Made by a program: the position numbers and the translations under genes. A model generated the notes under the pieces. The model did no database searches. It worked only from the letters and a program-made list of their open reading frames with translations, and was not told the origin of the DNA. A stretch of 64,000 nucleotides of DNA from Deroplatys truncata (taxonomy: Eukaryota; Arthropoda; Insecta; Mantodea; Mantidae). Positions 14,984 to 63,903 of the stretch are shown here, one piece after another (position 1 is the first letter of the stretch; each line of letters opens with the position of its first letter). The stretch is taken from assembly GCA_030765065.1 (NCBI GenBank), contig CM060975.1, positions 262,827,816 to 262,891,815 on the forward strand, written 5' to 3'.

Positions 14984-14984
14984 G

Positions 14985-15016
<32 letters not shown>

Positions 15017-15050
15017 GGTGTCACTAATTAAATGACGAGGCATTTGGCTA
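14984..15050 (-). rRNA. 28S rRNA fragment, downstream side of the R2 site
   Basis: The minus strand reads TAGCCAAATGCCTCGTCATT and continues through AATTAGTGAC and ATGGATTAACGAGATTCCC to about TGTCCC. This is the conserved 28S sequence immediately downstream of the R2 insertion point. It begins exactly at the TAGCC boundary, where the R2-I 3' end (ending ACTTACATTA) is attached. Only about 67 bases survive before unrelated DNA. It differs from the conserved 28S sequence at several positions, so it is a relic rather than a functional rRNA gene. Confidence 0.85.
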
Positions 15051-15843
15051 TAATGTAAGTGCTAGTGTCTCATTTTCAGGTTGTATGGTAACAGTGACCA
15101 TCCCTCATATAGCAGTTATGAAGTAACATTTTAAGCGAATAAAAATATAACTGACGGTAGTATTAGTTATTAATAGATACTTCTTATATTAATAGTCCTG
15201 AGTGTTAGTAATATTATTTTTGATATTTATGTTGATACTATAATAGTAAAATATAATTAAGATAAGATCATATAAATCCATAGATCTCACAATAATATCA
15301 TAGGCAAAGATCTTCATAAAGTTAGATGTGGTAAATGATCATTCGTTGGCAGTTTCAATAAAGGTACTATGTATATTAAAGTTCTCTTCAAAATATTAAT
15401 GGCCACATGTTTTATCTCTCTATAGGTGAAGCCTATATGCTTGAGAAAGTGGCGAGATTCAGGAGGAACTGAACCTCTAGATCCAAAGACCATCGGTTGA
15501 ATCTCGACTTCATTAAGCTCCGGATGTGTATTCATGCGGGTAACGGATGGGGACTCTCTATTTAGAGACAGCCCCACTTCAGGGAGTAGCGACCCTGCCC
15601 ACGTGAGCTCCAGGATCCTTTGGCCCGGAGGGTAGTACCTGGTTAGGGCCCCCTTGCCCAGGGTTACGGGTGAAGACCCCAAAGGTATATTCAACGGAGA
15701 AGGAATCCTTCAGTATGATGAATATGCGGGAAGGGACACATTAGTAGAAGGAACTCCATAATAAACCCGGGTAGAGGAAACTCGTAAACTGGGTGAAAGT
15801 AATCCTATAAGGGTAGGAGGACCTAAAAGAAATCCCCTCCAGG

Positions 15844-16705
15844 TTGGGGGTTGTGCGTCTGGGTTGGTGTCCCGTCTATGTAAAAACAAAATTCACTCAT
15901 AAGCTTCAGAATAAAAGTAAGCCGGACGGATTTAATAGACACGTCTACAGCAAGAATAAAGTGAAACGATTAGAGATAGCTGATACATTAAATATTCCAA
16001 CCTGGAATGTCAGGGGTCTGTATAATATGGAAGTCGAAATACAAAATGAGTTAATGAAGAAAAACATAAGCATAGCAGTGCTTAGTGAAACAAAAATTAA
16101 GTTAAAGGAAATATTAGATATAGGAGACTATACTCTACTGCAAGGATGGCAAAAAAGCCTTCCTACCGTGAGTCACCAAATATGTAACACACACTGCATC
16201 ACTCAGCAGCACGTGAAAAGCAAATAGGGAATGTGGCAGAGAGGGAACGGCGCCTGCGAGGTAAAATGACTCGAGTCACGTTTTCGCTACCCCTGCTCTA
16301 CTGTATAGTGGAGTGAAACATAAAGTAAGGGCCCAAGCAGGTATTGCCATGATGATAGAGCATAAATGGAAGAAGAATATTACAACGTATACCTTGTATG
16401 ATGAGAGAATTGTGACAATTGGCTTCAAAATACCAAAAGGCCATATGACAGTTAAGTGTGTACAGCCCGGAAGAAGGTAGACTGGAAGAATCAGGTACAT
16501 TTTATACAACATTACAAAACGTAGTCAATAATATTAATAAAACTGTTATAGTATATATCTGTGGAGATTGGAATGCCCGGGTTGGAAATATGGCTTGAAA
16601 CGATATTGTTGGTCAATTCGGAGAAGACAGAATCAACTGTAATGGCATGAAGATGAGAGATTTCTGCGTATGCACTAATTTGAAGATTACTAACACATTC
16701 CATAG
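15844..16705 (+). pseudogene. APE-like endonuclease of the RTE-like element
   Basis: In the intact family this domain nicks target DNA to prime reverse transcription. Visible motifs are WNVRGLYN near 16008-16030, VLSETK near 16080 (catalytic Glu) and CGDWNARVG near 16560-16590. The frame is split by the MITE at 16141-16295 and by later frameshifts, and the C-terminal part with the SDH motif is deleted. It is non-functional. Confidence 0.7.
16141..16295. mobile_element. hAT-like MITE with 8-bp target duplication
   Basis: This 155-bp insertion is flanked by perfect CTCTACTG at 16133-16140 and 16296-16303. The ends are short inverted repeats: left CAAGGATGGCAAAAA, right (complement) CAGGGGTAGCGAAAA. 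An 8-bp duplication with a CAGGGGTxGC-type end is typical of hAT elements. The matching position in copy B (about 30664-30675, ACTCTACTGTATAG) is uninterrupted, so the insertion is specific to copy A. It has no coding capacity. Confidence 0.85.
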
Positions 16706-16913
16706 AAAAAAAATTAACTTGCTAAGTAATAAATCAATACCAAATCTATATTGACAAAAATTAAACCAGTATTTGAAACGGAAACTAGTAAATAAGGAAT
16801 GGCAAGGAAAAAAGAACTGTGTACAAAGGGCTGCAGATGAAGCATTGGGTAAGGACACAATTTGGAAACGAAGAAAAGGATTAAAAATCTGGAAAGAAGA
16901 AATAAACTAAGCT

Positions 16914-17909
16914 TTGAGTGATAAGCAACAAGCTTGTAAGTTACATTTAAAAACAGATGAATCCAAACAGAATTACATAACAGCAAGTAATGTCGCTAAA
17001 GATATAACAATAAGAGCACACAGAGATAGCTGGGATCTATTTGAGAGTAAAGTAGAACATGGCGTATATGGCAGACAAGACTTTGCTTACAAATTATTAA
17101 GAAACTTAAACATCACCGAAAGAGAGAACGCACAAATAGAGATAATATCTGAAGAAAAGTGGATCAAACACTATAAAAAACTTTGGTTTAATCCGAAGGA
17201 AGTAACATCTTATAGACAAGAAATACCCAATGAAAAGATTTATTTTTTAACGTTAGAGGAACTAGAGACAGTTCTGAAGAGCCCAAAAACAAAGAACAAA
17301 ACAAAAAATCAACAGAACCAGTGGGAATAAAGCTGGAATTGATAAAGAATGGGGAATACTACTTAAACTACGCCTTCTACATCTATTAAACACTTGCTGG
17401 ATTACAGTGAGAATTTCTGATAAACGGTGAGAAGCTACAATAATCACCATTTTCAAAAAAAAAAAAAAAAAAAAAAAGAGGAGGAGATCGAAATTAACCC
17501 TCAAGTTACAGAGGTATTAATATATTAAATTCAGCGTATAAAATTTACGCTGGAATATTAAACAAAAGATTAAAGCCAATTGTGCACACATTATTGGAGG
17601 AATAATGTGGATTTAGAAAAGGAAGGTCTTGCAACCACAATATACTCAATGATACAATTAATAGAGAAACGGAGAAAATATAATTCACCTACATATCTGC
17701 CATTTATAGGCCTAGTAAAGGATTTGACAAAGTTGATAGGCGGAAATTATGGGAGACATTAGAGAAACATGGATACCCCATTCATATAATAAATTGTATA
17801 AAAAGTCTATACCAAGGCACCTGTTTTAAGTTCAATAAACCATATTTTAAAGGAGAATGAACGGTAACTAACCAAGGGGTCAGACAAAGGTGTGTATTAT
17901 AGCCTACTC

Positions 17910-17942
<33 letters not shown>

Positions 17943-18330
17943 GGACGACATCTTACGTGGATGGAAAGGATGTGCACCAGTTGAAATATTAATAGAGGGA
18001 AGGAATGTAAATGTTTTAGCCTACGCAGATGATGTAATTATACAAAACGCAGAACAGAATATTCATGAAGCAACCTATATGTTTCACCAGATATGCCAAG
18101 AATATAATTTTAAGATCTCTGCTCCAAAGACCAAGACAATGGCATTCCAAGGTAAACATCCAATAAGAATAAAATTATTTTGGAGAACAATATTTTAGAA
18201 TAAATCCAATATTTCAACTATCTGGGATATGAACTCTCATTTGATGCTGACAGAGACCTGTATAATAAAATGAGTAAATATAAGTTAATGTGTGGTACTA
18301 TAAGAAGAATACTAAAACAAGTTAGACACT
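16914..18330 (+). pseudogene. Reverse transcriptase of the RTE-like element
   Basis: Frame pieces at 16914-17330 (linker with FLTLEELETVLKSPKTK), about 17600-17820 (GFRKGRSCNHNILND, FDKVDRRKLWETL) and 17941-18200 (MDDILRGWKG, AYADDVIIQNAEQN) make up a reverse transcriptase with the YADD catalytic box intact. It is broken by a poly-A run at 17455-17477, by frameshifts and by an AT microsatellite just before MDDIL. The thumb-like end (YLGYELSFDADRDLYNKM) follows at about 18210-18280. Confidence 0.75.
17913..17942 (+). repeat. (AT)n microsatellite inside the RT frame
   Basis: About 15 AT units sit exactly where the RT should read LFNIYMDD. The run adds codons alternating Ile and Tyr without changing the local reading sense. 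It probably grew from the AATATATATGGA coding seed. Confidence 0.85.
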
Positions 18331-18714
18331 CAGCTTAAGTTTTGTAAAGTAATGACAATAGCAGTACTATTGTTCGGCACAGAATTCTGGCTAATACGAT
18401 AAAAACATAATAGGCGTATACACGCTACTGAAATGAAATTTCTAAGATCAGTATTAGGATACACAAGATTATACAAAATTAGAAACCAAGAAATACGGAA
18501 AAATGAAATATATTTGCAATAGAAGATAAAGTTATAGAAAACAGGAAAAATTTGGAAGAACATCTGTAGAGAATAGATAATTCAAGGATACCAAAGGATA
18601 CTCGACTACAGACCAATAGGTTTGAGGCCCAAGAAGACCTAGACTAAGATGGATAGAGGCCGGAACAGGTTGATGGACCTAATCCCTGTCAGGAAGAAGA
18701 TGATGTATATTCAT

Positions 18715-19020
18715 TATTATTTCCTTTAATGGATTATATTTATCCACTTTTTCAAGGAAGGCTCATCTTCATACCTAATGGTGACATCTAATATAGTAGC
18801 CATATTGCCCTTTATAATTACAAGATCAGGTTTCAGGACGATTTCATTTCCTACTTGAAAGGACTGCTCATAATATATCCTTATTTCAGCTGGGTCCCTA
18901 GATTTGATTTTTGCCTTACTTTATTCACTAGGTCATCGTGTCTCTTCATCCGTGCGGGTTTGGTGGAAACGCAAAGACGCAAAATATATCCGTCCGTTTA
19001 CACCACTCCCTTATAATGTG
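18715..19020 (-). pseudogene. R2-I copy A restriction-like endonuclease domain
   Basis: The minus strand reads VSTKPARMKRHDDLVNKVRQ (about 18905-18965) and then LKPDLVIIKGNMATILDVTI with RYEDEPSLKK (about 18745-18840). These are the finger-linked R/KHD stretch and the PD...D...K-type catalytic core of the R2 endonuclease, which cuts the 28S target. The catalytic residues are present here, but the flanks carry stops. A one-base change in the lysine run shifts the frame. The frame would continue at 15520 without the RTE-like insertion. Confidence 0.75.
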
Positions 19021-19559
19021 TGCACGTTTCGTCAATGTCATATTAGTATCGGTTCTCATTAATTTTACAATCCTGGGTTTTAGTTTTTAACATAATTGCT
19101 TCTGTCATTTTTGAAGAAGATAGTATCTATGGTTTTAATAAGCAAGCAGTACCCGCGGAATTGCTATAGAAGCAGTTAACACCTTTGCTTTGCACAGACA
19201 ATTTGCTGAATATTCCCAGTTTTCTTCCTTTGCTTTATATTTGCGCTTGTTAGTAGCATTAATAGTACAAGGACATTCAATATTTGGGGTCGTAGCCCAT
19301 CATCGCTTCCGTTAAATTATTGTTGTTGTCAAAAAGGATCTTTCTAGCTTTCAAATATCAAAGGGAAACCTGGTAAGATAATCTTGGAGTACCAAGTCTA
19401 CCGTCTCTCCTTCTGCTATATATAAATTCATTTGCCGTGGATTTAAGTAAATGGTAGATATGCTAAATATACTGCCTGATATTGTCGTCTATTTGTTTTA
19501 ACACACTGTCGGATAGAGCCTCAATGTTCATAATATACAAAAAGTTGGGGGGTAATATG

Positions 19560-20500
19560 CAATAATAATAACAGTTCTATTTTTTCAGGGTTTGAAAAGC
19601 AGAGCAGCACATCTTTTGACAGCTCCTATAAGACGGTCTTTAATTTTTTTCCAATTTCAATATCCCAAGGTTTGATATCCCGAACCAAATAACGCAATAT
19701 TTCGTCTGGTTGAATAACTGGTACAGGTATATCCCCATCGGTAAGCGAGGGGTTTGCTAGGGCCCAAGATTTCCTTCCTGTAACAATTTTAAAACGAGGT
19801 TTTTATGAGGGAAGCCCCAAGTCCCAATAGATTGAGATGATAATTTAATTCGTCAAGCATGTATTGAATTTCTGATGCTTCCTCTCCTACAAATACTAGG
19901 ACTTCGACAAATGCCAAAATGCGTGGAATTTAATCCTTAAAGCTTACACACTTCTTTATGTCTGTAATGTGTTTTGTAACCCGATACAAAGCTACATTAA
20001 GAAGGGGAGATAGATAGAGGGTCACCTTGTTTAACCCTTCTCTTAATAAATATTTGATGACCATTTTTTAATATAGTGGTGGCGTGTTGTTGTATCTCTT
20101 GTATTAAATCAATCAAATATGGGAGAAAACCTTGGGCCTTTAAACCAGCTGTGATCGCGATATTACTAATTGTATCGAACGCTTTTTCGATATGGACTGT
20201 GGCTAAAGTCAGTCCGGTTGCCTCTTTCCCTTTATTAATCGCTTCAGAAATTGTGGCCATGTTTTAAAATGTTCCATTACCTGTAAATTGGCCTTGTTCA
20301 GAGGCGGTTCTCGCCTTAGTTTTCATTCGGCGACAGAGCAAGCCGGATAAGGTCCTACCATGGAGTCAGTCTATAGATATGGGGCGCCACCCTTTAACCA
20401 CTCCGTTATTACAAAATTCCTTAGGGATAAAAATGGTCTTACTATTTTTTCAAGCTTTTGGGGTATATCCCTGTTAAAAGAATAAGATTAAGAGAATTCG
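19560..20500 (-). pseudogene. R2-I copy A reverse transcriptase
   Basis: Frames include TLATVHIEKAFDTISNIAI and RRVKQGDPLSISPS (19997-20260), a position equivalent to the FADD box near 19900 (AFVEVLVFVGEEA) and the thumb region (VPVIQPDEILRYL, about 19690-19730). Two catalytic positions are lost: the motif A Asp is His (VHIEKAF), and the FADD aspartates are gone. Frameshifts separate the blocks. Confidence 0.75.
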
Positions 20501-22119
20501 CTAATAGAGAGGGGATATTCAATCTGAGTATATGTCTTTAAATTCCATTTATCCCGGCGGCTGTGGACCTCTGTATCAAACGACGTCCAGTTTCCACCTC
20601 CGCCAGGGAGATGAGAGGCAGGCCTAAATTCATTATACTGTGGTTGTAAATTCTCATTCAGTATTAATATTATCACCCCATAATTCGGAATATTGCATAC
20701 TAAGTTGCTCTATTGGAATTTTTCTCCTAGCTTCTTCACCTACACTAATATAATTTAATACTAAATCCGCCAATCTACTAGGACATTTATAAAACATATT
20801 TTGTTGCCTTGTATATAAATAACGTTTATTAGAAGAACTTGGTTTTTTAAAACGATGTTGTCCGTTTCTATGTTCTAACCCCGCCTTTGTTCGGTCCCCC
20901 TGTTTTAAAAATATTATTAATATCTCCTCAAGTGCATCAATAACTGATTAACTTGATCAAATTTGGTATGCATCGAAGCAAGGTGATCCATCTCTGAGCT
21001 AATCTCCTCTAAAATTAAAGCAGTACAAATAAGCTTAATGTGGGTAATATAATTTTAGCTTCATTCTTCCATGATTCTATATCTTCTTGAATGCACTTGT
21101 CGCCAGCTACCCATTCAGGGCATCTCTCATTATAAGGGTCTCTGTGATATTCTGATGACCGTCCATGGTTCTAAGAGGACATGGGCTGTGTTTATGAATT
21201 TCATTAAAATAATGTATCGGTTCTATATTTGGATGTTCGGGAATTGTTATGGCTATTCAGAGACCACAATCTGCGGTATCTGGTTAGGGGCGTGGTGTTG
21301 TACAGCAGCGGTGTGTGAGCAACTTAAATTTTTATCATTCGTAACTAGGTTTTTGGGGTTAAATCAAGGGAATGTCCCTCTTCTTCCCTTAGTTTAGCGT
21401 TTTTATCCGGTGACCTATTTCGATATAATCGATAAATCATCAATTACAATATTCAAGGCGGGAGTAACTATTGTAACTAAGTTATGCATTCCAGAAGGAT
21501 TAAGACAGGAGTTAATCGATTGATCATAATCTTCCCTTATTCCTTGTAATTCTATTTCCGAAGGAGACTCCTGTTTGTTGTCGGGAATTACATCGCTAGA
21601 AATAGAAGTCATAATGATAGTGCTTATTAGTGATGTATTCCTGATATAGTTCGTCACATCAGTTTTTTCCATCCCCTCCATATGAACTTCCTGATCATTT
21701 TGCTGAGCACCTACATTAAAATCTATGTTGTCCGTTCTAATGGATCTGAACGAACCTCAACCACAGTCTCATTCGACAGAATTATATTTTTCTCCGCGAA
21801 GGCCTCCCCTTCAGCAATTGGAAGTGGATCATAACATGTTAACATTTGAGAAATGGAACATATGTCATATTGGACCTCTATATCGACTTCCAAGACACTA
21901 ACAGATTCCTCAGCCTTTAAAAATTCGTCTTCAATTAATTGCCTTCTTTTATGTTTAACCTAGTCTATTGTTTTGTGGGGGTAAATGGGCCTGATTTTCT
22001 TATTTACGGCTGTTTTGCATTCGTATTGAAATGATAATTCTACCTATAACTCGCTGTCCTCAACCGTCCAGACACCTTTATAGGCAACTTTCGTTTTCAT
22101 GGCCTCCAATCTGTTTTCA

Positions 22120-22420
22120 TTTCTAATATTCTTAGGCCTCTTAGCCTCATGTTGACTAAGACCCATTAATGTATTCAACTAAGTTTCACAATTATCGCAT
22201 TTAAAATCATGTTGACGATTATTGATAGTACCAGGACACTTAGGTATGTGGAAGATAGCAGAATGTAGTAGTTCAGAGGTCTTATTACAAAAAGTGCAGC
22301 TATAAAAAAACCCTCCTTATAATGGACACAGTTGAGTGCTTAATATATTCACCCACGAGTGTAAAGAACAGACCGCAGTCTATTGGCTTTACATGAAATG
22401 CCAATAACTGATTTAATATT
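22120..22420 (-). pseudogene. R2-I copy A zinc-finger N-terminus
   Basis: Compared with the better copy at 33525-33884, the minus strand here keeps finger-like remnants with Cys-Cys...His spacing and an HIPKCPGT-like stretch near 22240. R2 proteins use these fingers with the Myb-like domain to bind the 28S target. The frame is interrupted by indels (for example the A run near 22300). Confidence 0.6.
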
Positions 22421-23856
22421 AGCCATTTTTATGCATATTAACTGGCACTATAATGTATCAAATAGTAATATAGTGAAAATGTAAATTAGAGATATTATTA
22501 AATGAAGATGAGTTAAAGCCTTCAATGTCAATTAAAACACCATCATATAAAACATTACAATGTGTGAGATGATAAAAAAATTCATGAATTTGTCAAAGGT
22601 TAAAATATAAAAAAATAAAAAAGTCAATAAATCACAAAGGAGTGAATGATATCTAAAATAAATTGCTGACTATTCAACAAAAATTAAAGTCGACATGTAT
22701 GTATAAAGACGTAACAATAAAAATGCGTTGAGCATATTAGTCATAAAGGATAAATACTTTAAGGGCTTAACAGGTCAATCTTAATATAATGAAATTTGTT
22801 TAAGAACTGCCCAGTGTAAAACAATGATTTTTTTTTAAAAGGTGAGGTTGGTAACGTCACTATCGATGGTGTGTGGGCAGAAACAATGACGATACACCGT
22901 TGGTATATAAACTAATGTAAACAATCCATATGGCCGCTTATAACCAGGAAATTTAACGATGAAATGAAATGTAATACCTAGCGATAAAAAGCGGTACCTA
23001 CGGCTCTAAAATCATCAGTGTAACCACTCGTTAAAATATATATATAATTGTAGAGGGATTATGGTCTCTTCAAAATAGCCCTAGGTTATAAAAGGCATGT
23101 TGGTACTACTAATACATTAAATTACATCATTCGCCATTTACTTCAATGCACAAAGAGTCTTAATCACAATCAACACTTATATACATCAATAGAATTAAAG
23201 GAGAAACCCATAAAGAAATAATCGCAATAAATTTAGTTAAATTCTCTTAGGAGAGAAGGGAACGAGAGTTCTAAAAATAAACACACAATATGACCGATAA
23301 TCATTCCATATTTGGAATAAAGGCAACTGTAATTATTACTGGCTTAACTATAACAATACAGTCATTAATTAAAAGAGAACGATATGTAAAATCAAATGTA
23401 ATATGGAGAAACTTTACCCTTGAACGCAGTAAGGGAAGGAATTCACCTCTCCACTCTTCCTGTTCACACGAACCATTAACCCAAGGAAACCACAAGCGGA
23501 GAACCACAATATTAACTTTTCCCTTAAATTTGATAGACTACTTAATCCATCCACATACTAACACTCGCCAAAAAATTATAAAATTATAACGTGTTATTAT
23601 ATAACGACAGAACTGTTCATAGGTTATTTCATATAAAAACTGTGATTAAACACGGAGCACAAAAATCACTGAATTGTCTTCCGCCGCTATGATCTGGTAC
23701 GGGTGTTACCTAATCCAATTTTCGGATTATTGAAATATCCGTCACCCTGCCCCCTAGAATCCTTTCTTATAATGTTTATTTTAGTGTTATTCCAAGAAAG
23801 GCTACTAACATAAATAATAATTAATACTAAACAAAGAAACTCGAAACTAAAAAGTA

Positions 23857-25258
23857 GTTAAATTCCCGGAAACAAAGCCTCCTTGGCCAATAGTACAGGT
23901 ATACCCTCCGTAATTAGATGCCCTCTCCCAACCCCATCCAGCCCAAAGGCAATCGTCTTCCGGACCCTACGAAGCCGTATTTCGAATTTACTGGGCGAGG
24001 TGAGCGGGAGGTATTGAACCAGAGTTACACAGGTAGGCCGGATGTCGTGGCTATCTTCTAACTTAACCCATTGAACCCATAAATCTGAGTAAAGCTGTTC
24101 TGAGCCATTGGGGTCTCTCTCTCTCTTCCCACCATCAACAATGTATGTATTGGGGGCACATGTTGCGTAAGGTGGGATGGACATTTACGAAACATGTTCT
24201 GACAACGGGAATATAAATAACGTTTCATTGAGGAGCGTATTCTTCTTCCAATACCTTGCGTGATCCTCGGCTTCTCTTTGGTCCTGTGTGTTACATTTCC
24301 CCTCAGTCTTCCCAAACCGGATATAACCCAATCTAGAGCATCGGGAAGCTTCCTTCTCCCGTTCGCTTAGGGTCAACTCATTTAGGGTTCCCCCCAATTT
24401 ACCTAACCCTTGAATGTGTCCGGAAGTTTTAAGGGATAAGATATCGGGTAGCCTCACGTGTTCATAATTCCATGTTACACATATCTCCCTCTCCCGCTAG
24501 CTATCCAGGTAAGCCGGGCCACTTAAGGCCTCTGATGGATCCTCCGTGAGACCTGCAGACTCCGGGCGGTACTCGGATAGGCGTGGACAAGGGCTCTGGT
24601 GGATCTTACACTCCCTCTTGACGAACAGAACTATTATCATCAACAGCCACTTCTAAGTTTTGATCAACATCATCGACCCTAGGCAGACCATTAGCGGCCA
24701 GCTTTTTCCGCTGATATTTAAACCTGTCGATGGTTTTATGGGGAAGTTCCACCTGGATCCTTTCATTAATGGCTGGTTGACCCTCAAAACGAGCATACAA
24801 CTCGACCAACTGGCTAAGATCTTCCTTATACCATCGAGCTTGGCCACTTTCCTTTGGGACCACCTAGTCTAAGCGCTTCTCATTCCGGATGTTCGGATGA
24901 GCAGAACGCTCATGGAATCGCCAGATTCCTTTGAGTCTCAAATGACCTAGCACATTCAGAACACGGAAATGGCAGTTTCACCTGCTCCGGCGGACCAGGA
25001 CACTTGGGAACATGGCATACTACTGAGCGCACCGAGCTAAATGGCCTATTACAAAGCCACAATTATAGTTCACTTCAGTCTAGGATGGTTGGTAACTAGT
25101 CGCTCTGTTACTCACTGAATATTTATCTTTATTTGTTGCCGTGAACAGAATTAAGTTAAATACATTTTTGGGGTCCGTCTTTAACGAAGACCGGCCCCAG
25201 GCATGCCTTCCTCAGAAGGGTACCGCACCCCATCAATCCCCCTAGGAAATGATCAAAG
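23857..25258 (-). mobile_element. R2-II fragment, 5' half
   Basis: The minus strand holds, in order, 5' sequence (25.26-25.1 kb), decayed fingers (about 25.05-24.88 kb), a Myb-like domain at 24606-24863 (ELYARFEGQPAINERIQVEL, PHKTIDRFKYQRKKL), a linker, and the start of the RT at 23858-24184 (RRVRKTIAFGLDGVGRGHL, TEGIPVLLAKEAL). The RT stops abruptly at 23857, where the R2-I copy A 5' end begins. The remaining RT and endonuclease are missing. At the other end it abuts the R1-like element. Confidence 0.8.
24606..24872 (-). pseudogene. R2-II Myb-like DNA-binding domain
   Basis: An 85-codon frame begins VPKESGQARWYKEDLSQLVE and continues through FEGQPAINERI to PHKTIDRFKYQRKKL. The Trp, the spaced helices and the PHKTID...KYQR ending are typical of the Myb domain that follows the zinc fingers in R2 proteins. 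It contributes to sequence-specific DNA binding. It is the best-kept part of this fragment. Confidence 0.7.
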
Positions 25259-26116
25259 TGTTTGTCTTTACTCCCTTACGTGCAAATCGTATTTTACACA
25301 TTCAAAAAGGGCATGTTCCGGATTGTTCTGCTTATAACATATCACATATCATTTGAGATTTTGTTTATCTTTTTCCAATATGTTCTATATGGGCCGTGTC
25401 CTGTTAAGAAATGTAACAGTACTTTTGTGGGTTGTATATGCATGAAACTGGATCTTTCCTGAATATTACAAAAAAATTGTTAAGTACATCTACCTTAAGT
25501 TGCTTGGTCTCATTCTTGTTGCAAATTTTGTTTTAATATATTTTTGACATCTCTTTTAGTGTTGCAATTTCCCCCCATAATTTCTCTAACTTTGTAAGAC
25601 ACTGACGTTTTGAGCCAAAATATGGCTCCTCTTAACTTAATAATATAGTCAATTGGCCAGATACCTATACAAACCAGAAGGGTTTGAAGGTGGGTGAAGT
25701 AATAGCAGCACCTGTAAATCTTAAAAGAATTTTCCGCTCTGAACGCCTTAATAGAGATCTTATCGTAGCATCATTCATGTGTTTCGCCCAAATCCCTGCG
25801 CCATGGGATTTAATAGAGGCGAAAATGCTAATGTGGTATGTTATAATCACGTTGAAAGGTATCTTGAAATCCTTTTGAACTATTCTTGCTAATTTGAGCA
25901 TAAGATTCTCTCCTTTCTTCCTAACGAAATCTGTGTGTTGTCTAAGATTAAGTTTTTCATCGAGAAATATTCCGAGGTATTTTGTCTTTTTATGATTTGG
26001 TGATTGTATTTTATTATGGTAACTCGCTTAAGATTTCCTTTAAATACCATATAGTTAGATTTTAATGGGGATACTTTCAGTTTTGTCGTCTCACACCAAT
26101 CAGATAATTTTGTGGT

Positions 26117-28111: not shown

Positions 28112-28233
28112 TTCTTCAGCCGTTTATTTCGGTTCCGACATTACATGCCTGTTACGTTGAGCATTTATTCGTGCAATTGTTAAAGAATTGAAATCCTCCC
28201 TATCTTGCATTTTTAATTTAATCCTGTCCATAA

Positions 28234-29524: not shown

Positions 29525-29560
29525 GAGGACGGAGGGAATCTCGTTAATCCATTCATGCGT

Positions 29561-31280: not shown

Positions 31281-31299
31281 GTGTTCCTTCTGTAACAAT

Positions 31300-53544: not shown

Positions 53545-54079
53545 TGTTTTATAACCGGATTGAAACCTAATTTAAAAAGACGAGGAAATAAAGGGTCACC
53601 TTGTTGACCCCTCTCGTAATAAATATTTGACGACCAGTTTCTAATATAGTGATGGCGTCTTGTATCTCATGTATAAATTCATTGAAATGTGAGAGAAAGG
53701 CTTGGGCATTTAAACCAGCTGTGATCACGCTATTACTAACTTATAGCACGCGTTTTCGATATCGACTGTGGCTAAAGTCAGCACACTCACCAAACAACTA
53801 TAAATCATATAAAGTGTTAACTATATAACGAGAGCACTGTTCATATGTTATTTCACACAAAAATTGTGATTAAACACGGAGCTCAAAAATCACTGACTAA
53901 GTCTTCCGCCGCTATGATCTGGGACTGGTTTTACCCCATCCGATTAACAGATTATTGAGATCTCCGTCACCCTGCGCCTAGAATACTTACTTATACCATA
54001 TTTATTTTATGGTTATTCTAAGGAAGGCTACTAACATAAATAGTAACTAATACTAAACAAACAAACTCAAAACTAAAAA

Positions 54080-54290
54080 GCAGCTCAAACAAATAAAACA
54101 TGGCAGCTAGGAGGCGCATAGCCAATAGAGCTAATTAATAGAATAAATTAAAAGAAGCAAGTATACAGTTAAAAATCATGCACTCGCCTGACAGAGTTGT
54201 TAGCATATTCCATAAAGGAGCTATGGATGTTTTAGCTCATTTTGATTATAGTCAGTGCTGTAGATTCCGCTTCTCTTTTAGAGATTCCCC
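54080..54290 (-). mobile_element. R2-II 3' terminal piece
   Basis: It matches 37084-37285 and 40160-40355: terminal TTTTATTTGTTTGAGC, then the 3' UTR and the start of the endonuclease tail. It is cut off by the I/Jockey-like element. At 54080 it abuts the R2-I 5' end. Confidence 0.75.
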
Positions 54291-54934
54291 CCCAGGGTCT
54301 CACCTTGTGTGAGTGCGAGTTTGGCGTACACGGGGTGTCTGAGCCACTCATCATAATTCCTCCACCCTCGTCCGGTCGAGGTGGGATCGTCCTCGTGACC
54401 GGTGGACTCAAGGTAGGCTCTCGTGCGCTCTTTGCATTTCGCTCCATGCCGCCCCTCGCCATCGTTTCTTTCTTGTCTAGCCCCTTTCCGAACATTTCGC
54501 ACCACGTCCATTCATTCACACAATTATTTTCCATCTTCACCCGCCTACCTTACGAGCGAATCGCCCACGCACTTTTTGGATTTTTTTACCATTCTATTTA
54601 TTTTAATCCTCCGTGGACACAGCCTGATGGATACCCGCGTACTGGGTGCGCAGCTGGGTGAGTGGGTAATGGAGTCATCCCCACCACCCCGGATCATCAT
54701 GTAGGGCCTATGTTCGTATCCGTTGTTCAATTGCAGATCCGTGGGGGGCCATTATATGAGCTGCTGACTTCCGAGTCACACCGACGGCCATTGGGTCCCT
54801 CTGTCTATGTTCTGGGAGGTGTGACCCTGGGGTGGCCCTGGAATAGATAGGTCACACACCCAATTCGGGGTAACGCCCGGGAAGTCAGATATCAATGTCG
54901 GAGACGGTTACAATAGTGGAGGATTTCTTTCGCT

Positions 54935-56246
54935 ATGGGGCCCTCTTTCTCCATTACTTACAAGCGCCGAAAAGTCTTTGTAAAAGAAGTGGCACCACCG
55001 ACATCTGGTTATTACTTGGTCATTTCACGAACAGAAGAAGGACAAAGTTTTGAGGAGATGAACCCTTTTATTATTCAGAAGGGCATTGATGCTTTTGCTC
55101 GTGAGGTTCCGTCCTGCACTCGTCTAGGGAATGGTTCCTTATTAGTACAAACAAGGTCCGATCAGCAAAGTAAAACCTTTTTGGGCGCTACGCTTCTCTA
55201 CGGTTATCCCATCCGTGTTGAGAAGCACCGCACCTTGAGTTCCTGTTAGGCGTCGTTACCATACATATTCTCGATGGTATGTCGGACGATGAACTCGTAG
55301 ACTATTTTTCAGATCAAAAGGTGACAGCTGTGCATCTAGTGCAGACCAAACCCGAAGGAGTATTGGTACCCACTCGTACCCTGTTTATAACTTTTGATGG
55401 CGTCGATCTGCTCACGAGCAATTCAGCAGGGTACGAACGTATTGCGGAGAGGCCTTATATTCCTATAACTCTGCGTTGTTTTAAATGCCAAAGTTTTGGG
55501 CATACGTAAGTCTCATGTAAGAGTGCCGTTACCATCTGTGCATCATGTAGCCAGTCCGCGCACGAAGGTACCTGCTCAACAGCCCCCGACGGCGTTAATT
55601 GCAAAGGGTCCCATTCTGCGTCATTTCCGACTGTCCGCGGTACTTGGACGAGAAGGCGATCCAGGAGATCCGGATAAAGGAGAAACTCCTTCGCTGAAGC
55701 CCGGAGGCGTTACTATACGCGCTAAACTTCGCTCCTGCGATCGGGTACATTAACAACTGTTGTTGCCTCGCCAGTACCCCGGAAGGATGCCGAAACACGT
55801 GGACCATGACTGCATTGACCGACACTACAATCATGTCTTCCATTTCTGGTAGAGTTATCAAGCCATCTAAAGCAGGTACTAAGGTACTAAAGTCACAAGA
55901 CACTGAAAAAAAATCAAAGCAGAAACTTCGTATGGATGATTTTCTGAAAGACCCTCCGCGTGCGCGCGGTAAGAAAAGTTCACCTTCTCCTCCTCGAAGG
56001 TCGCAGTCCCAGGATGCTCCTGGGACAAGCCGCGCTCAGACGCACCAATCGCCCATTGCCACCCAGAACCGATTCTCGGCGCTTAAATCGGTTTCTGGCA
56101 CTGAGCGCGTGGGCCCTTCATTCGAGGAGCCTATGGAGTCTGATCAACTCCATACCAAAAGACGGAGCCCCAAGGTTAAGCAAAAATTTATTTTGAGCCG
56201 CCATTCTAAGAAAGAAGTTTATCCCTTTTATTCATGGCTATCCTGA
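54935..56246 (+). pseudogene. ORF1 (Gag-like) of the I/Jockey-like element
   Basis: Frame 54935-55249 includes MNPFIIQKGIDAFAREVPS and GSLLVQTRSDQQSKTFLGA, an RRM-like fold of insect transposon ORF1s. Frame 55279-55509 has MSDDELVDYFSDQKVTAVHL and RPYIPITLRCFKCQSFGHT, the start of CCHC knuckles. Frameshifts then continue with C..C..H..C remnants (CASCSQSAHEGTC) and a basic C-terminus (55806-56246). Such proteins coat the element RNA. At least three frameshifts are needed for one protein. Confidence 0.8.
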
Positions 56247-59200
56247 CCTGGAATTTGTGTGGTGTACGATCGCATAGGGCAGAACTGCAACTTTTATTAC
56301 GTTCCCTTTCACCTGTGGTCCTGTGTTTAACGGAGACTAAGCTTCGCCCTCACGATCCTTTTGATTTCTGAGGATATACTCCGGTTCGCTACGATCTTAA
56401 CCGGATGAGGGTACTCTTGCTCATGGAGGTGTCATGTTATTAGTGCGTAATGACGTTCATTTTCAAACCCTCACTCTTACGTCCGACTCGCATGCTGAGT
56501 CCGTTAGGCTTTAATCACCGGGCTTTTTCTTTTCCGATTGCTCTGTCTATTCACCTCCATCGTCTCCCCTCGCTAATGCGGACATTCGAGATCTCCTGTC
56601 CGCTCTCCCAACACCATTTCTTCTGTTGGGGGATTTAAATGCCCATCACCTCCTGTGGGGTTCGCCAAGGGCTTGTGCGAGGGGAACTCTTCTTTCCGAC
56701 ATTTATGCTCAGTTCAACCACTTCATCCTCAATACAGGTGAACCCACTTATCTTTCGGATTTTTCTGGTACATTCTCTCACTTAGACCTTGCAGTTTGCT
56801 CCATCCAGCTTGCTTGTCGGCTGCAGTGGAACGTCGTCGCTGACACCTACTCCAGCGATCATTACCCTTGCATCGTCTCTCTTCTGTCTCAGAGTACCTA
56901 CCTGGATATTCAGAAATGCCGACTGGAGATTGTATTCCAGCCTCGTGTGTTTTGAGGACCAGACCTTCACTGGCGTTAGCCAAATTGTGCAGCACCTTAC
57001 GTCTACTATGCTATCTGCCGCTGAACGCAAAATTACCCGTTCGTCCTCTCACCCTCAGCGCATTCCTGTACCGTGTGGAACGAGGACTGTCAGGACGCCG
57101 TTCGTGCTCGTAGAACAACGCTCAGGTTGTTTCGGCGACACCCTATACTTGATAATTTGGTTACGTTTAAGCAATCGCGGGCCAGGACTCGTCGCATTAT
57201 TCAAGATAGCAAGAAGGCGTCCTGTACTAGTTTTTTTCGAGCTTCACGTCTTCCTCTGTTGTTTCGGATAAACTTCGTCGCTTCTCCGGTAAAGTTTCGC
57301 ATTGTACTGTCTGGCCTTCAGGTTTCCAATGCCACCGTAGTGGATTCGGCTGCCATTGCTAACACTCTGGGTACTGCCTTAGAGGCGGTTTCCCGTTCTG
57401 CCCATTATTCCGCCGGATTTCGCATCCTCAAAGCCCGACTGGATACCGAAACCTATAATTTTCGGTCTGTTAATAAAGGAGTGTTATAATGAGCTTTTCA
57501 TAATGAGCTGGAACACGTTCTCCATTGCTCTAGGCAGTCCGCTCCTGGGTCTTACGGCATTCATGCCCGCGTGTTAAAGAACCTTTCAGACGACAGTAAA
57601 CTCTTTCTGTTACAGATCTATAGCCGTATTTGGCGAGACGGCCTTATTCCTTCCGTTCGGAGCGAAACCACCATTGTCCCTATACTAAAGCCTGGGAAGG
57701 ATCGCCATCTACCCATCAGTTACCGCCCTAATCTCCGTCACCAGTTGCATTTGCAAGGTGATGGAGCGCATGATCAACGGGCGGTTGACATGGTGGCTTG
57801 AGTCTCAGAAACTTCTAGCGATCGCTCAGTGCGGATTTTGTCGCCATCGTTTTACCGTTGACCATCTGGGTCTCTGTCGACGCATATTGTGAATAGATTT
57901 CTGAGAAAGTGACGAACAGTGGCTGTGTTTTTTGACCTGGAGAAAACTTATGACACTTGTTGGAGGGGCGACATTTTATGTAGACTTCACGCATGGAATT
58001 TACGCGGTCGTCTTCCCATATTTCTTCGGGTGTTCGACGCATCCCGTCTTTCGTGTACGTGTGGGCTCGGTTTTATCTAGTCGCTTTATTCAAGAGAACG
58101 GTGTACCGCAGGGCTCTGTACTCAGAGTCACACGTTTTGCTATTCTTATCAACCCCATTGTTCATTGTATTCCACCTGGTATTTCATCGTCCCTTTTTGT
58201 TGACGATTATGCCATTTACTGCAGTTCTCGGCGGGCCTGTGCTCGAACGCCGTCCCAGAGCTGTGTAGACCGTCTCTACGACTGGAGTAACACCAATGGC
58301 TTTAATTTCTCCTCCGAGAAATCAGTCTGTACAAATTTCTGGCACCGGAAGGTATTCCCTCCGCCCTCTCTCCATCTTGGGTCGGAGATACTTCGTTTGC
58401 AGACGATGTGAAATTTTTGGGGTTGATCTTTGTTAGAAAGCTGAGCTGCACTTCGCACATTTCCTTTTTAAAAGCAAAGTGTGACCGTTCTCTTAATCTT
58501 TTATGTGCTTTAAGTGGCTCATCCTGGGGAGCTTATCGGATCATTCTTCTGCATCTTTATCGCTGTTTGGTCCGATCCAAGCTTGATTACGGGTGCATTG
58601 TCCATTCGTTGGCACTTCCATCTGTGTTACGTCGATTGAACGCCATTCGCCATTGTGGCATAAGGGTCGCTACAGGGGCTTTCCAACCAGCCCTGTACCT
58701 AGTATATAGGCTGAAGCTGCAGAGCCTCTGCTGTCTCAAGGCGTGAGATGCTTTTGTGCAGCAATGCATGTCGACTCTCAAGCTTGCATGACCACCCGTC
58801 CTTCGAGTTATTTTTCGAGGAGTCGCTTGATCGGCAATATTTCATTAGCTCCTCTGCATTGCTCCCCGCAGAGCGTTTTTAGAACTACAGGCGCAATTCG
58901 GGGAATGTCATTTTATATTTACTGATGGGTCTAAGACTGGTGTTTGGAGTACAGTGTGCCTTTGGTTTTGGTGAACATAATTTTAGCTTTCGTTTACGTG
59001 GGCAATGTTCGATTTTTACCGCCGAACTTTTTGGTATTTATCAATCTGTTTTATACATTCAGCGGCACGACTTTCGGCACTGTGGTGTTTGTACGGACTC
59101 TCTGAGTGCTCTACTGAGTATTAACGCGCTGTAAAATTGCCACCCCCTCGTAGAGCGCATACCTGACCTGCTGCACTCGCTTGGTGCCCCTGGCATCCGC

Positions 59201-59600
59201 GTCTCTTTCTTGTGGATTCGGGTCATGTAAGCATCTCAGGCAACGAGTCATCCGATTCCGCTGCTAAATCGGCAGTTTTATCGCCCAGAATTTTTACCTC
59301 TGTTGTTCCCCCTACTGATTTCTATGTAATTTTACGGCAAGGCATCCTCTCGCTTTGGCACGATGAGTGGACGACCCTCCGGAGGAACAAGTTGTGGGAG
59401 ATTAAACCTCTCCCGGTTGTCTGGGCCACCTCTTCTCGTACTTCTTGTCGGGAAGAGGTATTTTAACACGACCTCTAATCGGAAATTGCCTTTTTGTTAT
59501 AGAAACTTGCTTAGTGGTGACCGCGCACCACTATGTGAGCGGTGTGATGCGCCCTTAACGGTGCATCACATTTTAGCGATGTCAGGTTTTAGCTCAATTG
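56237..59600 (+). pseudogene. ORF2 (APE, RT, RNase H) of the I/Jockey-like element
   Basis: The APE part has GDLNAHHLLWGS (56629-56664), LNTGEPTYLSDFSGTFSHLD and SDHYPCIV (about 56850). RT parts are ETTIVPILKPGKDRHLPISY (57660-57720), FFDLEKTYDTCW (about 57925-57960), RFIQENGVPQGSVLRVT (about 58085-58130) and SSLFVDDYAIYCSSR (58190-58230), with VDD at the catalytic box. RNase H shows FTDGSKTGV (about 58915-58940) and HVSISGNESSDSAAKSA (59220-59270). A Cys/His tail CERCDAPLTVHHIL lies near 59537-59575. Numerous frame changes make it dead. Confidence 0.82.
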
Positions 59601-60020
59601 CGTGTTCGTGTATCTATGCCTGTTGCTCTAGCCAACGTTTTGGCAGACGACCCGCATACTGTAGAATGTCTTATGTTTTATCGCTGAATTTCGTTTTAGC
59701 CGACGCATTTGATGCGGTGTACGTCTTTTAATTTTGTGACTTTATACTGTCTGTTTTTTAATGGGGCTCTTCACTCGGGCAGAGATATGGCGCTCTTGTC
59801 CTTTGTGTTGTAGAGTTCCTGACACGTCGTTTTACTCTTGTCTTGTTTTATTTACTATGTTTTTGTGGTGGTTTTAAAATTCGATCGTTTGTTTTATAGT
59901 GTTTTTGTCTGAGGTTTTTTGACCCATATTTTATTTTTGGACTTTAAATTTTATACTTTGTAAGAGCGCTGATGACCATAGCTGTTTAGAGCCCTTAAAC
60001 CGCATCTCATCATTATTCAC

Positions 60021-60767
60021 CACACATATTCTGACAACGGAAATATAAATAACGTTTCCTGGAGGAGCGTGTTCTTTCTCCAGCACCTTGCCTAATCCTC
60101 GGCTATTCTTTGGTCCTGTGTGTCACATTACCCCTCAAACTTTCTAAACTGGATATAACCCAATCCATAGGGTTTCGGGAAGCTTCAAGGTCAAAAACAT
60201 TCTGAGATTATCCCAACGCTCCAAGAGGGAAACGGGAGCCCATCCTGAACCCAAATAATTAAAAGAATAATAACAGGCATAGACTATTTAGCCTTACAGA
60301 AATCAAAGAGAACAGGAAAATATACACCTTTCCAAATATATGGATGGACTAACCACATACCAAACAGGACATCTATTTACCCCAAGAAGAATCGAAAACA
60401 CTGGGATAGGGCAATCCCCTAGTGCATGGGAAGAGCTAGTGTTCCCTTTGCTTTAACACTTCATAGGGAAATGTATACTCTGCCAACCTATGTTGCTCGC
60501 TGGGATCCTCACGGAGGTTGCACCCACAAGGAGTATGAGAACACACTGTGTCACCACTCTGCTCTAACGATGTCCGAAGATCCTTCGCCATCGTTCAGCG
60601 ACCTGGAAAACCACGCATATAAGCGGACAAGCCCACAAATGGCACCGAGCTCAGATGACTTTAATCTCCCTCTTGGTAACAGCCACTTAACTGAGAGTCT
60701 CGGGAGTACGATCACTTTCTGGTAATAGATCGATTTAGCCAAGAGAGATCTACCCAGGCGTTTCCTA
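60021..60767 (-). mobile_element. R2-II 5' piece
   Basis: 60021-60180 matches the R2-II pre-RT segment (compare 24.18-24.36 kb), then jumps at about 60185 to the 5' region (compare 43.87-44.46 kb), losing the fingers and Myb domain. The 5' terminus reads AGGAAACGCCTGGGTAGA (60766-60749), a diverged version of the R2-II/III 5' block. Confidence 0.75.
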
Positions 60768-60911
60768 TTATCTGAGGATGAACCCCTGATTTCCGAGTAA
60801 TGAAAGTGCTCGTCTTCATAATTCTGATCATTATTTTATTCTAAGACAGGCCACTTAACTTTAAATTAAAAGTAAAAGAAACGCAACACCCAAACGAACT
60901 AAAAACAAAAA
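60768..60911 (-). mobile_element. Probable R2-I 5' scrap
   Basis: The last 80-100 bases resemble the R2-I 5' terminus (TTATTTTATTCTAAGACAGG and the closing AAAAACAAAAAG), followed by TAGCCTCAA of the next R2-II. It is the fourth instance of the R2-II 3' / R2-I 5' junction. The leftward limit is vague. Confidence 0.5.
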
Positions 60912-61254
60912 GTAGCCTCAATAAAGAAATTCGGCGCGCAGGAGGCTCATAGCCATTGCTTTAAATCAACTAAAAAGTTAAAATATTTAAAACAACTCAA
61001 AACTAAATATCATGCACTCGCCTCACCGGAACATTCGCATAATCTAAGAAGAAGCTATGGTTGTTTATGCTCAACTTCAGTATGTTCATTACTATGACCC
61101 CTATATCTCTGCGAGTGAAGCACCAGAACCTCAAGACGTCCCTGGTCTCCGGCGGTACTGACCCCCTCGATGCAAACACCTATGGTTGAACAGAAAAATG
61201 CTCAATCCAGGGTGAATGGCTCAAATTGGGGTGTCGAGTTGTTGATATTTCTCG

Positions 61255-61294
<40 letters not shown>

Positions 61295-62187
61295 CGACAA
61301 GGACTCTCCATCCTCATACCTGATGGTGGCGTCGATGACGAAGGCTTCGGCATCTCGAACTAATACCAGGTCGGGCTTCAGGCGCTGTCTATCTACGGCC
61401 AGGAATGGTGTTTTTCATGATACACCGTCGTTGGAGGATTATTTGATTTAATCCATTCTTCATCTCGTTTACCACGGTGTCATGTCTTCTTATTCTTGCG
61501 GGCTTAGTGGAAACACACAGGCCAAGAATATAACTTGTCTCCACCGCAGCACCGCAACCGGCAGTTGACATCCGCTTGGGGATTATATCGAGACTCGACG
61601 ATTCTGCATGATTGTGTGTTTGTTCGGAGTTTGAGTGCCTCTGTAAACCTCTATGCCTTAAGCAGCCAAGGTTTCAGGAGCCACCCATTACCAATAGTAT
61701 CGCCATAAAATTTCCCTATCCCTTTACCCATTGAAAGTCAAGATGTCCATTTACCCCACTCTCTGACTTTCAACGACAGTTTATGTGCATTGATGTCGTT
61801 AAGTGTGCACGGCCACTGCAGGCCCAAGGTCCGGGAGACATGGAGTCTTAATGTTAAATTATCCCCCTCTAAAACGGACTTAACCAAATCATTCCGATGT
61901 AGCAAGGTCTCCCAGCGCGCAAATACGCTAGGAGGACCAGATCCGCCATTTTTGGCATCCCCAGGCTCCCGTCCCGTTTGCGACTGTAGAAAAACCCTGT
62001 TGCCACTGACTTGGGTAGATGAAAAATACGCTTGATAACAAGCCGAGGCTTGTTTTCAATGTCTTAAAGGGAGGTTCCAAAGTTAATAGGTACATGAACT
62101 TAGGCACAATGTACCTTAATAGGAGCTCCATCTTTTGCAATGGTTTCAGGGGCAAGCCGGCACAACGCTCGGCTGCGGCTATGATCT
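60912..62187 (-). mobile_element. R2-II-like 3' piece, 5' truncated
   Basis: The minus strand reads the thumb (KPLQKMELLLRYIVPKFMYL, 62155-62095), then the endonuclease: LGLCVSTKPARIRRHDTVVN (about 61480-61545), LKPDLVLVRDAEAFVIDATI and RYEDGESLSKA (about 61295-61390), the 3' tail and the terminus TTTATTGAGGC. It begins abruptly at 62187 after R2-IV sequence, as expected of a 5'-truncated copy. The frame is interrupted by a (TC)n array just after the SLSKA codons. Confidence 0.75.
61258..61291 (+). repeat. (TC)n microsatellite inside the R2-II endonuclease
   Basis: About 16 TC units; on the minus strand they read alternating Glu and Arg directly after the SLSKAE codons of the endonuclease. 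In other copies this position has GCAGAGACTG-like coding sequence. Confidence 0.92.
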
Positions 62188-62619
62188 AACACACGTGTGC
62201 TTATTTTCGCGTTCGGGAGCGCGTTCCCAGAACCTTATTTAAGTTAAAAAAATTTAAAAACATTCTTGGGTCATTATTTTAAAACAACAACAAAAACCAA
62301 CTAATTAAATACGATATAATTCAAAAATTCTAATAATTACTAGATCTACCTTCGGGTCAATTGATCCTTCTTTTATTTCCTACGGTAAACTAGAACTACT
62401 GTCCCTTGATAAAATTCTTTCTAAACAATTATCTGCCTCGCTTATTCTGAAGCTGACGAAAGTATACTAACTACTTACTATACATATCGATAACGATTTA
62501 AGCTATTAAATTTGTTCTTGAATATACGTTTACCTATTCATTCGCGCCCTCAAGAAAGGAACTGTGGATCATTAACCCCCCTTTTTAAGATGAATAAAGC
62601 TAAATTCTCCAGTTCGCGT

Positions 62620-63249
62620 TTACTGAACCCCAAATCCTTTAAAGTATTTCTGGCTTCGAGGGTAACAGATCCCCTTGACCCGAACACTAGTGTTGCCATA
62701 ATAACTATGAATGTTCTTCAGGTTTGGATAAATTAACCTTAATGAGGATTCAAGATTTCTATAGTTTTCCACCTTTTCTAACTGGGCGAAGTTCAACGAA
62801 TCTTTATCTTCGTATCTAACCGTCACATCTATTATTTGGGCAACATCATTCTCGATTTTAACTATGTCAGGCTTTAGCATCTCTGAATCATTGATTCTAA
62901 AGGAATGCTCATGATAAAGGGTAGCTGCCTCGGAAGACATTTCGATTTTTCTCTTTACCCTTAAAAGCAATTCATCATGCCTCTTTATACGCGCTGGTTT
63001 TGTTGATACGCATAAACATAATATGTGACCGGCTGTTTCAAATCCCCCCTGACATCTCCTACAATTAGTATCTACGTTTGGCTTGTATCTCTGTTCTACC
63101 ATCCTGCAGGCTTGCGTGTTGGTGTCTCTGAAAGCGCTCCCTACTTGGCCATTCCAAGGATTGACGTACTTCCCGAGGTATCTGAGAAAGTCGTCTGGCT
63201 TGGCCACTGGGATCCGCCATTGCCCAAGTCTTCCTACCGACAACAACAT
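62620..63249 (-). pseudogene. R2-IV thumb-endonuclease fusion frame
   Basis: A 209-codon frame runs VAKPDDFLRYLGKYVNPWNG, then jumps in frame to TNTQACRMVEQRY and the endonuclease: CCHC unit CRRCQGGFETAGHILCLC, STKPARIKRHDELLLRVKRK, MLKPDIVKIENDVAQIIDVT, VRYEDKDSLN. Compared with R2-III about 250 residues of thumb are missing between VGSAFRD and TNTQ. The CCHC residues, the KRHD stretch and both catalytic acids are intact, the best endonuclease in the window. No start or promoter is evident, so it is a decaying remnant. Confidence 0.8.
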
Positions 63250-63325
63250 GGAAGCAGGAGGATTTCAATGATGACACTCCAAGTCCTAAAGGTCGGAGAC
63301 CATTACAGAGCAGCTCTAACATTTT

Positions 63326-63766
63326 TTAAACCTCCTCCGGGCCCCTACCCACCAGAACTATGTCGTTAGCAAATGCTAAGATGTTAAGTCGTTTGTTATC
63401 AAACGACAAACCCGTGGGTATATCAGTCACTCGTCTCAATAACGGATCGATAGTAAGATTAAATAACAGGGGAGAAAGGGGATCTCCCTGGTTAAGAATA
63501 TAACGATTAGCTTCTTCCACCCAAAAATCCATGTCCTGTCCATAGTCGACCCCTCCTTCCAGCCACCCCGGAGAACGGAAAACCTCGGTGTCTTCTAAAG
63601 GAACACCAGACGGCCCCGCCACACCAGGAGGCCTCTCAGGGGGAGCCAGTGACAAGGGCTCCGACGGACCATGTTCCCCTTTGTGACTATCAGTTATATT
63701 TTCAGTCACAGCGTCGCCCATTCTTTGATCGACTAACGCATCCCTCGATAGAACTTTGGAGGCCAA
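63326..63766 (-). pseudogene. R2-IV linker-RT fusion frame
   Basis: A 146-codon frame starts in the post-Myb linker (SKVLSRDALVDQRMGDAV, Pro-rich PPERPPGVAGPSG) and passes at about codon 92 (YILNQGDPLSPLLFNLTIDP) directly into the RT QGDPL motif, then LAFANDIVLVGRGPEEV. RT motifs 0 to A are therefore deleted in frame. The FADD box reads FAND. It stops just after this box, and the next frame (63249-62620) is shifted. Confidence 0.75.
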
Positions 63767-63800
63767 CTTAAAACGTTGGTATTTAATTTGATCGATGGTA

Positions 63801-63903
63801 ATAAGAGTAAAAGTTACTCCCGCCGTTTACCTGCCCTTGCTTGAATTTCTTCAAATTGTCATTCAGAGCACTGGGCAGAAATTGCATTGCGTCAACACCC
63901 GCT
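63801..63903 (-). rRNA. 28S rRNA fragment, upstream flank of R2-IV
   Basis: The minus strand reads GGGTGTTGACGCAATGCAAT, then TTCTGCCCAGTGCTCTGAAT, GAAATTCAAGCAAGGGCAGG and TAAACGGCGGGAGTAACTTT, ending near TCTTA at the R2 cleavage point. It is the same 28S interval as 49352-49460, in the same orientation and ending at the same place. Confidence 0.88.

Follow-up and report, generated by a model that had tools for sequence, protein, structure and literature searches.

Stacks of R2 retrotransposons between relics of the 28S rRNA gene in a decayed cluster of the mantis Deroplatys truncata

R2 retrotransposons are usually described as one copy per 28S ribosomal RNA (rRNA) gene, whereas at the locus described here they stand in stacks within relic 28S sequence. 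The locus lies at 14984-63903 of a 64,000-nucleotide stretch of the Deroplatys truncata genome (GenBank assembly GCA_030765065.1, contig CM060975.1, positions 262,827,816 to 262,891,815 of the forward strand), which we call the window and to which all coordinates refer. R2 elements in 28S ribosomal DNA (rDNA) share with the copies described here the reverse transcriptase (RT), the CCHC motif, the endonuclease and the CTTAAGG/TAGCC target, and both full-length and 5′-truncated R2 5′ junctions have been published (PMC2718515). Tandem R1 arrays in Drosophila are likewise made of head-to-tail, site-specific copies at one 28S site; they were explained by insertion of newcomers 5′ of an R1 already present in the 28S gene, and their copies are separated by a 14-bp target duplication (PMC2718515). 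The stacks described here differ in consisting of R2, in containing several types, in being decayed and in having 28S runs of at most 7 bases between copies. A tandem array that lies outside rDNA in D. simulans has the 5′ end of an R1 joined to the 3′ end of an R2 (PMC2718515). Similarly, in the window, where no intact rDNA unit is present, an R2 3′ end precedes an R1-like 5′ end; here, however, 66 bases of 28S separate the two and several R2s precede, while the D. simulans passage does not say whether the joined parts have 28S between them. Some fish R2s have 28S-derived sequence in their 3′ untranslated region (UTR) and 5′ junctions approximately 110-130 bp upstream of the R2 site, a boundary similar to one reported below; there the 28S-like piece belongs to the 3′UTR and replaces the target (PMC5035012), whereas here the pieces border R2 5′ ends and reach no further than the cut site. 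The searches made of open-licence literature, judged by titles, beginnings of abstracts and text passages, turned up no account of R2 stacks. What is new here is the R2 stack, tandem R1 arrays with this explanation having already been published (PMC2718515).

Four relics of the 28S gene were located on the minus strand (Table 1). The two 28S halves were compared with both strands of the window by sliding local alignment, keeping the best match per 1.4-kb stretch. The upstream-half relics scored 155 and 140 and the downstream-half relics 115 and 112, one more place in the window reached 30, and the maxima across 60 mononucleotide shuffles per half were 26 and 25. With scores of 112-155 against a shuffle maximum of 26, a chance origin of the four relics is rejected. 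The Rfam family of eukaryotic large subunit (LSU) rRNA, RF02543, was matched by 49352-49459 (E 4.8e-17) and 63801-63903 (E 5.3e-10), and the Rfam search did not report the two 66-base downstream relics. The inner ends of the relics correspond to the point between CTTAAGG and TAGCC; the relic at 49352 has CTTAAAG at its inner end, and that at 63801 lacks ~4 bases at the end of the upstream half. These results confirm the first-pass annotation of this DNA, which had placed four minus-strand 28S fragments at essentially these coordinates and had them end at the R2 insertion point. Insertion between CTTAAGG and TAGCC was thus seen at four junctions, of which those of copies A and B represent one event. 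The outer edges are abrupt. Past +66 and ~-106 the similarity to 28S falls to the level of shuffled sequence in four of four flanks (P 0.38-0.99), and in the same test both retained control pieces inside the relics gave P 0 of 2000. In viral contigs, no exact match to a 28S pattern was found.

Most of the minus-strand coding pieces of the cluster are R2. We compared seven stretches with solved structures by a PDB search, and for four of these R2 proteins were the first matches, in agreement with the earlier view that the neighbours of the relics are R2. For 46242-46694, which encodes an R2-type RT, the five solved R2 sequences came first (E 1.3e-18 to 4.6e-15), followed by a group II intron RT (1.4e-8) and L1 (3.1e-6); the stretch also matched Pfam RVT_1. 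R2 proteins were the top matches for 62620-63264 (E 1.9e-19) and 45019-45444 (E 1.1e-13), both of which match R2 structures in the C-terminal zinc knuckle and restriction-like endonuclease. Finally, 43107-43472 matched the N-terminal part of 9nl2 (E 1.5e-5), 9nl3 (6.6e-5) and 9dou (7.4e-5). The structure 8gh6, which we take to be the Bombyx R2 protein, was outscored by the A-clade structures 9nl2 and 9nl3 for 62620-63264 and 46242-46694 and was not among the matches for 45019-45444 or 43107-43472. The two higher-scoring entries are the PlaMe and TaGu complexes of A-clade R2 (PMC12180492). The Myb region was assigned by eye and by conservation among the copies, and the remaining R2 copies were placed by their similarity to one another.

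The copies were grouped into three stacks; this division and the labels F, C and AB are our own. Stack 2, the best preserved, extends from 49459 to ~25.3 kb and reads, 5′ to 3′ on the minus strand, 28S(-106..0), F, C2, C1, B, 28S(+1..+66) and an APE-type element. In the same direction, stack 1 consists of 28S (63903-63801), E2, E1, C′, a plus-strand element, a C-type 3′ part, an AB-type R2 and fragment D, and stack 3 of the C-type remnant G, R2 copy A and 28S (15050-14985). Two features go beyond the first-pass annotation: the R2s abut end to end, and the downstream 28S limit lies within the R1 interval described below. Within 50 bases of each of the six R2-R2 junctions, the longest uninterrupted 28S match measured 6-7 bases (P 0.42-0.93 against shuffles), and a 28S target-site duplication of ~14 bp, of the R1 type, was found between stacked copies at none of the six. 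At both 28S-R2 control junctions the match attained 14 bases, the longest length tested (P 0 of 1000). Since 28S is present at the outer ends of the stacks and does not rise above shuffles at R2-R2 junctions, the 28S flanks belong to stacks and not to single R2s. TCTTAAACA forms the terminus of three C-type 3′ ends (C2 at 38060, C1 at 34233 and G at 22797). After C1 and G an AB-type R2 begins (B and A, one event), whereas C2 runs into the middle of a C-type R2, the truncated C1. From the junction onwards, the 5′ ends of F, C2 and C′ can be aligned with one another, although 28S stands before F and an R2 3′UTR before each of the other two.

Table 1. Features of the cluster in 5′ to 3′ order of the minus strand; identities of the relics are to a 28S core consensus guided by the Rfam consensus, and not to the 28S of the species itself.
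Feature	Position	Strand	Remarks
28S relic, ~-106..-4 of R2 site	63801-63903	minus	90/102 identical; 5′ flank of stack 1
R2 copy E2, 5′-truncated	62186-63800	minus	28S joined to Myb/linker region; RT remnant, CCHC, endonuclease, C-end
R2 copy E1, 5′-truncated in RT thumb region	60769-62185	minus	divergent C-type; placed by copy comparison
R2 copy C′	60015-60768	minus	5′ end homologous to F and C2; adjoins E1 3′ part
C-type 3′ part, then AB-type R2	50504-54290	minus	54290-53783, then 53781-50504; both with deletions and insertions
Fragment D, C-type R2 RT/thumb	49731-50503	minus	49780-50503 similar to 41131-41851
28S relic, ~-106..0 of R2 site	49352-49459	minus	95/106 identical; 5′ flank of stack 2
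R2 copy F	44465-49351	minus	5′ end directly after 28S; RT 46694-46242, CCHC/endonuclease 45444-45019
R2 copy C2	38060-44464	minus	5′UTR, zinc fingers 43472-43107, Myb region, RT, CCHC/endonuclease, long 3′UTR
R2 copy C1, 5′-truncated	34233-38059	minus	directly after C2 3′ end; 3′ end TCTTAAACA
R2 copy B, AB type	29592-34232	minus	zinc fingers, RT, C-end, 3′UTR; holds plus-strand APE-like frame
28S relic, +1..+66	29526-29591	minus	62/66 identical; 3′ flank of stack 2
APE-type non-LTR (long terminal repeat) element	25270-29523	minus	starts at 28S relic end; RT 27186-26120 (Pfam RVT_1)
C-type R2 remnant G	22797-25256	minus	N-terminal 25256-23882 joined by deletion to 3′UTR 23857-22797, ending TCTTAAACA
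R2 copy A, AB type	15051-22796	minus	shares plus-strand insertion of copy B
28S relic, +1..+66	14985-15050	minus	62/66 identical; 3′ flank of stack 3, cluster edge

In the compared stretches the C-type copies agree at 78-89%, except for E1, which stands off at 62-71%. The similarity of A to B is 86-90%, and that of the stack 1 AB-type piece to these two is 83-84%. The regions of A and B align at 14982-16140 with 29523-30671 (87.8% over 1169 columns) and, including the C-type 3′UTR, at 19753-23863 with 31266-35295 (82.8%). The first of these alignments extends into a plus-strand APE-like frame (15817-16224 and 30357-30713), so this insertion is older than the duplication. Because they share the nested insertion, A and B appear to go back to a single R2 insertion, and the 28S end that they have in common is counted only once. 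The nested insertion also indicates that stacks 2 and 3 are partly duplicates. An alternative to repeated insertion is that unequal recombination among R2-bearing units, or a segmental duplication, produced the stacks as a whole; the similarity of C1 and C2 (83% over 951 positions) would also fit it. The junctions, however, lie at element termini and join different partners, and recombination alone would not put breakpoints at R2 ends. In addition, stacks 1 and 2 start with different R2s, E2 and F, which are 55% identical across 117 residues, and have different 5′ junctions. We consider this origin of the stacks very unlikely.

Both upstream relics share an outer edge at ~-106 followed by ~14 non-28S bases, after which they differ; both downstream relics also share an outer edge, and the flanks beyond differ. 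This pattern would be expected if the 28S pieces were part of a mobile unit, that is, if R2 RNAs with a ~106-base leader and/or a ~66-base tail had been reverse transcribed into non-28S sites. R2s carrying 28S flanks are the main rival explanation. 28S leaders are known on R2 RNAs, and some R2 junctions of horseshoe crabs carry a duplicated upstream 28S of 113 bases (PMC3774820). Given this limit and that of the fish R2s with their 28S-derived 3′UTR (PMC5035012), a boundary at -106 made by R2 itself is possible. On the other hand, none of the R2s in the window is flanked by 28S at both ends, and the +66 end does not represent two independent cases, since A and B look like one insertion. Moreover, E2 lacks its 5′ part and nevertheless meets 28S at the cut site; a leader would not produce such a junction, whereas insertion into 28S leaves one. 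The first-pass annotation had correctly recognised an R2 5′ side at 63801, which can now be refined to that of a 5′-truncated copy, and had named R2 copies carrying 28S flanks to a new site as one of two possible origins; on the above evidence we regard this origin as unlikely. As candidates for R1 or R2 sequence, the piece upstream of 49478 had one weak match elsewhere (18053-18156, E 1.2e-4) and the piece upstream of 63923 had none, and both were rejected.

On the downstream side, R1 junctions are described at +60 (3′ side) and at +74 (5′ side, with the 14-bp duplication) from the R2 site (PMC3414825, PMC2718515). The relic end at +66 falls inside this interval, and the element after 29523 starts close to the R1 site. 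Its RT piece at 26404-27186 gave L1-type matches in the PDB search, and a zinc-knuckle-like ORF1 piece was recognised by eye at 28732-28334; its APE piece at 27863-28123 had no PDB match. From its position and its order of open reading frames (ORFs) the element is taken as R1-like, its clade being unproved. In copy A, 28S stops at the same +66 point and is followed by unrelated DNA, for which our guess is a break or a lost R1. The DNA downstream of 14984 was rejected as R1 or R2, as its only matches were nearby, in an inverted repeat.

Taken together, the cluster probably consists of dead rDNA-derived units in which the R2 site of 28S was filled repeatedly, giving stacked R2s. This corresponds to the other origin named in the first-pass annotation, decayed and rearranged R2-loaded rDNA units, and it is the better supported of the two because 28S occurs only at the outer ends of the stacks, because an APE-type element lies within the R1 target interval, and because both published kinds of R2 5′ junction are seen (full-length at 49352 and 5′-truncated at 63801). 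The cluster would have originated from three such units. In each of them, several R2s would successively have filled the 28S R2 site, leaving the upstream half of 28S, R2 after R2, and the downstream half. One unit or more would also have had an R1-like element next, at the R1 site. New R2s probably inserted at the 5′ junction between 28S and the resident R2, where the 3′ end of the newcomer would meet the 5′ end of the resident. We infer this direction because an occupied 28S gene retains the upstream recognition sequence at that junction and because the zinc fingers and Myb domain of the A-clade R2 protein bind DNA upstream of the nick and so position the protein (PMC12180492). Older R2s would then end up 3′-most. 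The explanation given for tandem R1s, with newcomers entering 5′ of an R1 already in place (PMC2718515), is a precedent that supports this reading. Later, the units would have left concerted evolution, decayed and taken up other transposons. With endonuclease-dead R2 proteins, tandem transgene copies were the major class of 3′ junction, possibly through tandem copying of the template (PMC11371274); such copying would yield copies of one template and not different R2 types.

Several observations weigh against an origin from rDNA units that grew at the 5′ side. The shared -106 edge with its ~14 bases is not predicted by an rDNA origin. In the whole window an Rfam search (E up to 1) found no 18S, 5.8S or further 28S, the two LSU relics being the only rRNA matches, so there is no intact rDNA unit. 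In view of the -106 limit and of the absence of these other rRNA sequences from the window, the rDNA origin is not proved. The end at +66 differs both from the +74 that is usual for R1 and from the melanogaster-type -9 R1 junction. The 5′ end of the R1-like element was set by eye, an ATG lies 173 bases into it and opens only 34 codons, and the protein evidence, Pfam RVT_1 and L1-type structures, gives no R1-clade assignment. The 14 matches of 43107-43472 include generic zinc-finger proteins, with PRDM9 (2.1e-5) standing among the R2 matches. C2 and C′ may share ~30 bases more than the junction defines, which makes the first base uncertain by ~30, and many members of the stacks carry deletions. 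The numbers of disablements per 100 codons, which depend on detectable homology, are 1.23, 2.31, 4.12 and 2.57 from 5′ to 3′ in stack 1. The rise over the first three R2s was counted for 5′ growth and the fourth value speaks against it, as do the values of stack 2 (1.98, 3.26, 2.55 and 1.39), where the last makes the 3′-most copy, B, look young. Dating of the copies by disablements was rejected as non-monotonic and detection-biased, and growth at the 5′ side is weakly supported.

The low value of copy B would instead fit a variant in which each new R2 entered between the previous R2 and TAGCC, so that the stack grew at its 3′ side. In the C-type 3′ end, TCTTAA matches a few bases just before the R2 nick and would partly rebuild the target. 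This hexamer, however, is no better than chance, and the whole 3′UTR end is not significantly 28S-like: as a decayed 28S mimic or landing pad it failed against shuffles at all three C-type 3′ ends (P 0.24, 0.11 and 0.76, the third end covering 68 bases only; anchored 0.16). Reading of upstream DNA by the A-clade R2 protein (PMC12180492) also argues against growth at the 3′ side, which we judge rather unlikely, and entry at the 5′ junction remains the preferred direction. Separately, a 10-base 28S match lies ~80 bases upstream of the C-type 3′ terminus in two copies, at near 28S spacing with TCTTAA; it is not significant.

A delta-like ribozyme marking R2 5′ ends was supported neither by Rfam nor by a pairing test. 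Rfam gave no ribozyme match in the 5′ region of F (E up to 5) or in C2 (E up to 10), and pairing of a 28S octamer with R2 5′UTRs was no better than in shuffles. The 5′ region of F folds better than shuffles (z -2.47), which is not specific to a ribozyme. Peptide patterns of E2 matched 11 stretches elsewhere, none of them a relative.

Within copy F, 47719-48550 is a fragment related to the APE-type element at 25.3-29.5 kb (25-27% protein identity, open for 208 codons). It occupies the expected zinc-finger place of F, just before the Myb region, and represents a hybrid or a later rearrangement; 47719-48342 had no PDB match. We take C1 to be a single element broken by a 1.79-kb insert (35296-37081), since the sequence is continuous in C2; the insert lies between TA dinucleotides, has imperfect terminal inverted repeats (by eye) and is mariner-like. 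C2 carries a 1-kb insert at ~38.12-39.15 kb. A repeat of ~0.8 kb occurs three times (9712-10481, in opposite orientation, 38299-39147 and 52714-53544; 66-73% alike), twice inside R2 copies. In C′, which is broken by later insertions, 60188-60768 aligns to 43883-44464. The plus-strand element inside stack 1 (54900-59730) carries an Exo_endo_phos_2 domain (56515-56952) and is a non-LTR element of the APE type. Near the cluster edge at 14984, a decayed inverted repeat lies at 13969-14603 (61% over 522 columns). Outside the cluster, 6001-8000 is GC-rich (52%) and holds a 213-codon open frame with no Pfam match.

As a general proposition, which we put forward tentatively and would not yet call probable, R2s with upstream-reading domains may be able to re-insert at an occupied 28S-R2 boundary and so stack lineages in reverse order of arrival. 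If so, an R2 site that is already occupied can still be targeted, a point relevant to repeated insertion at one locus; R2 protein is under development for targeted transgene insertion into rDNA (PMC11371274, PMC12180492). Stacking would also bear on how R2 persists where few free targets are left. R2 lineages that live rDNA loses would be preserved in dead stacks beyond the reach of concerted evolution, and, were re-insertion to hold, a stack would record, layer by layer, which R2 families were active at what time.

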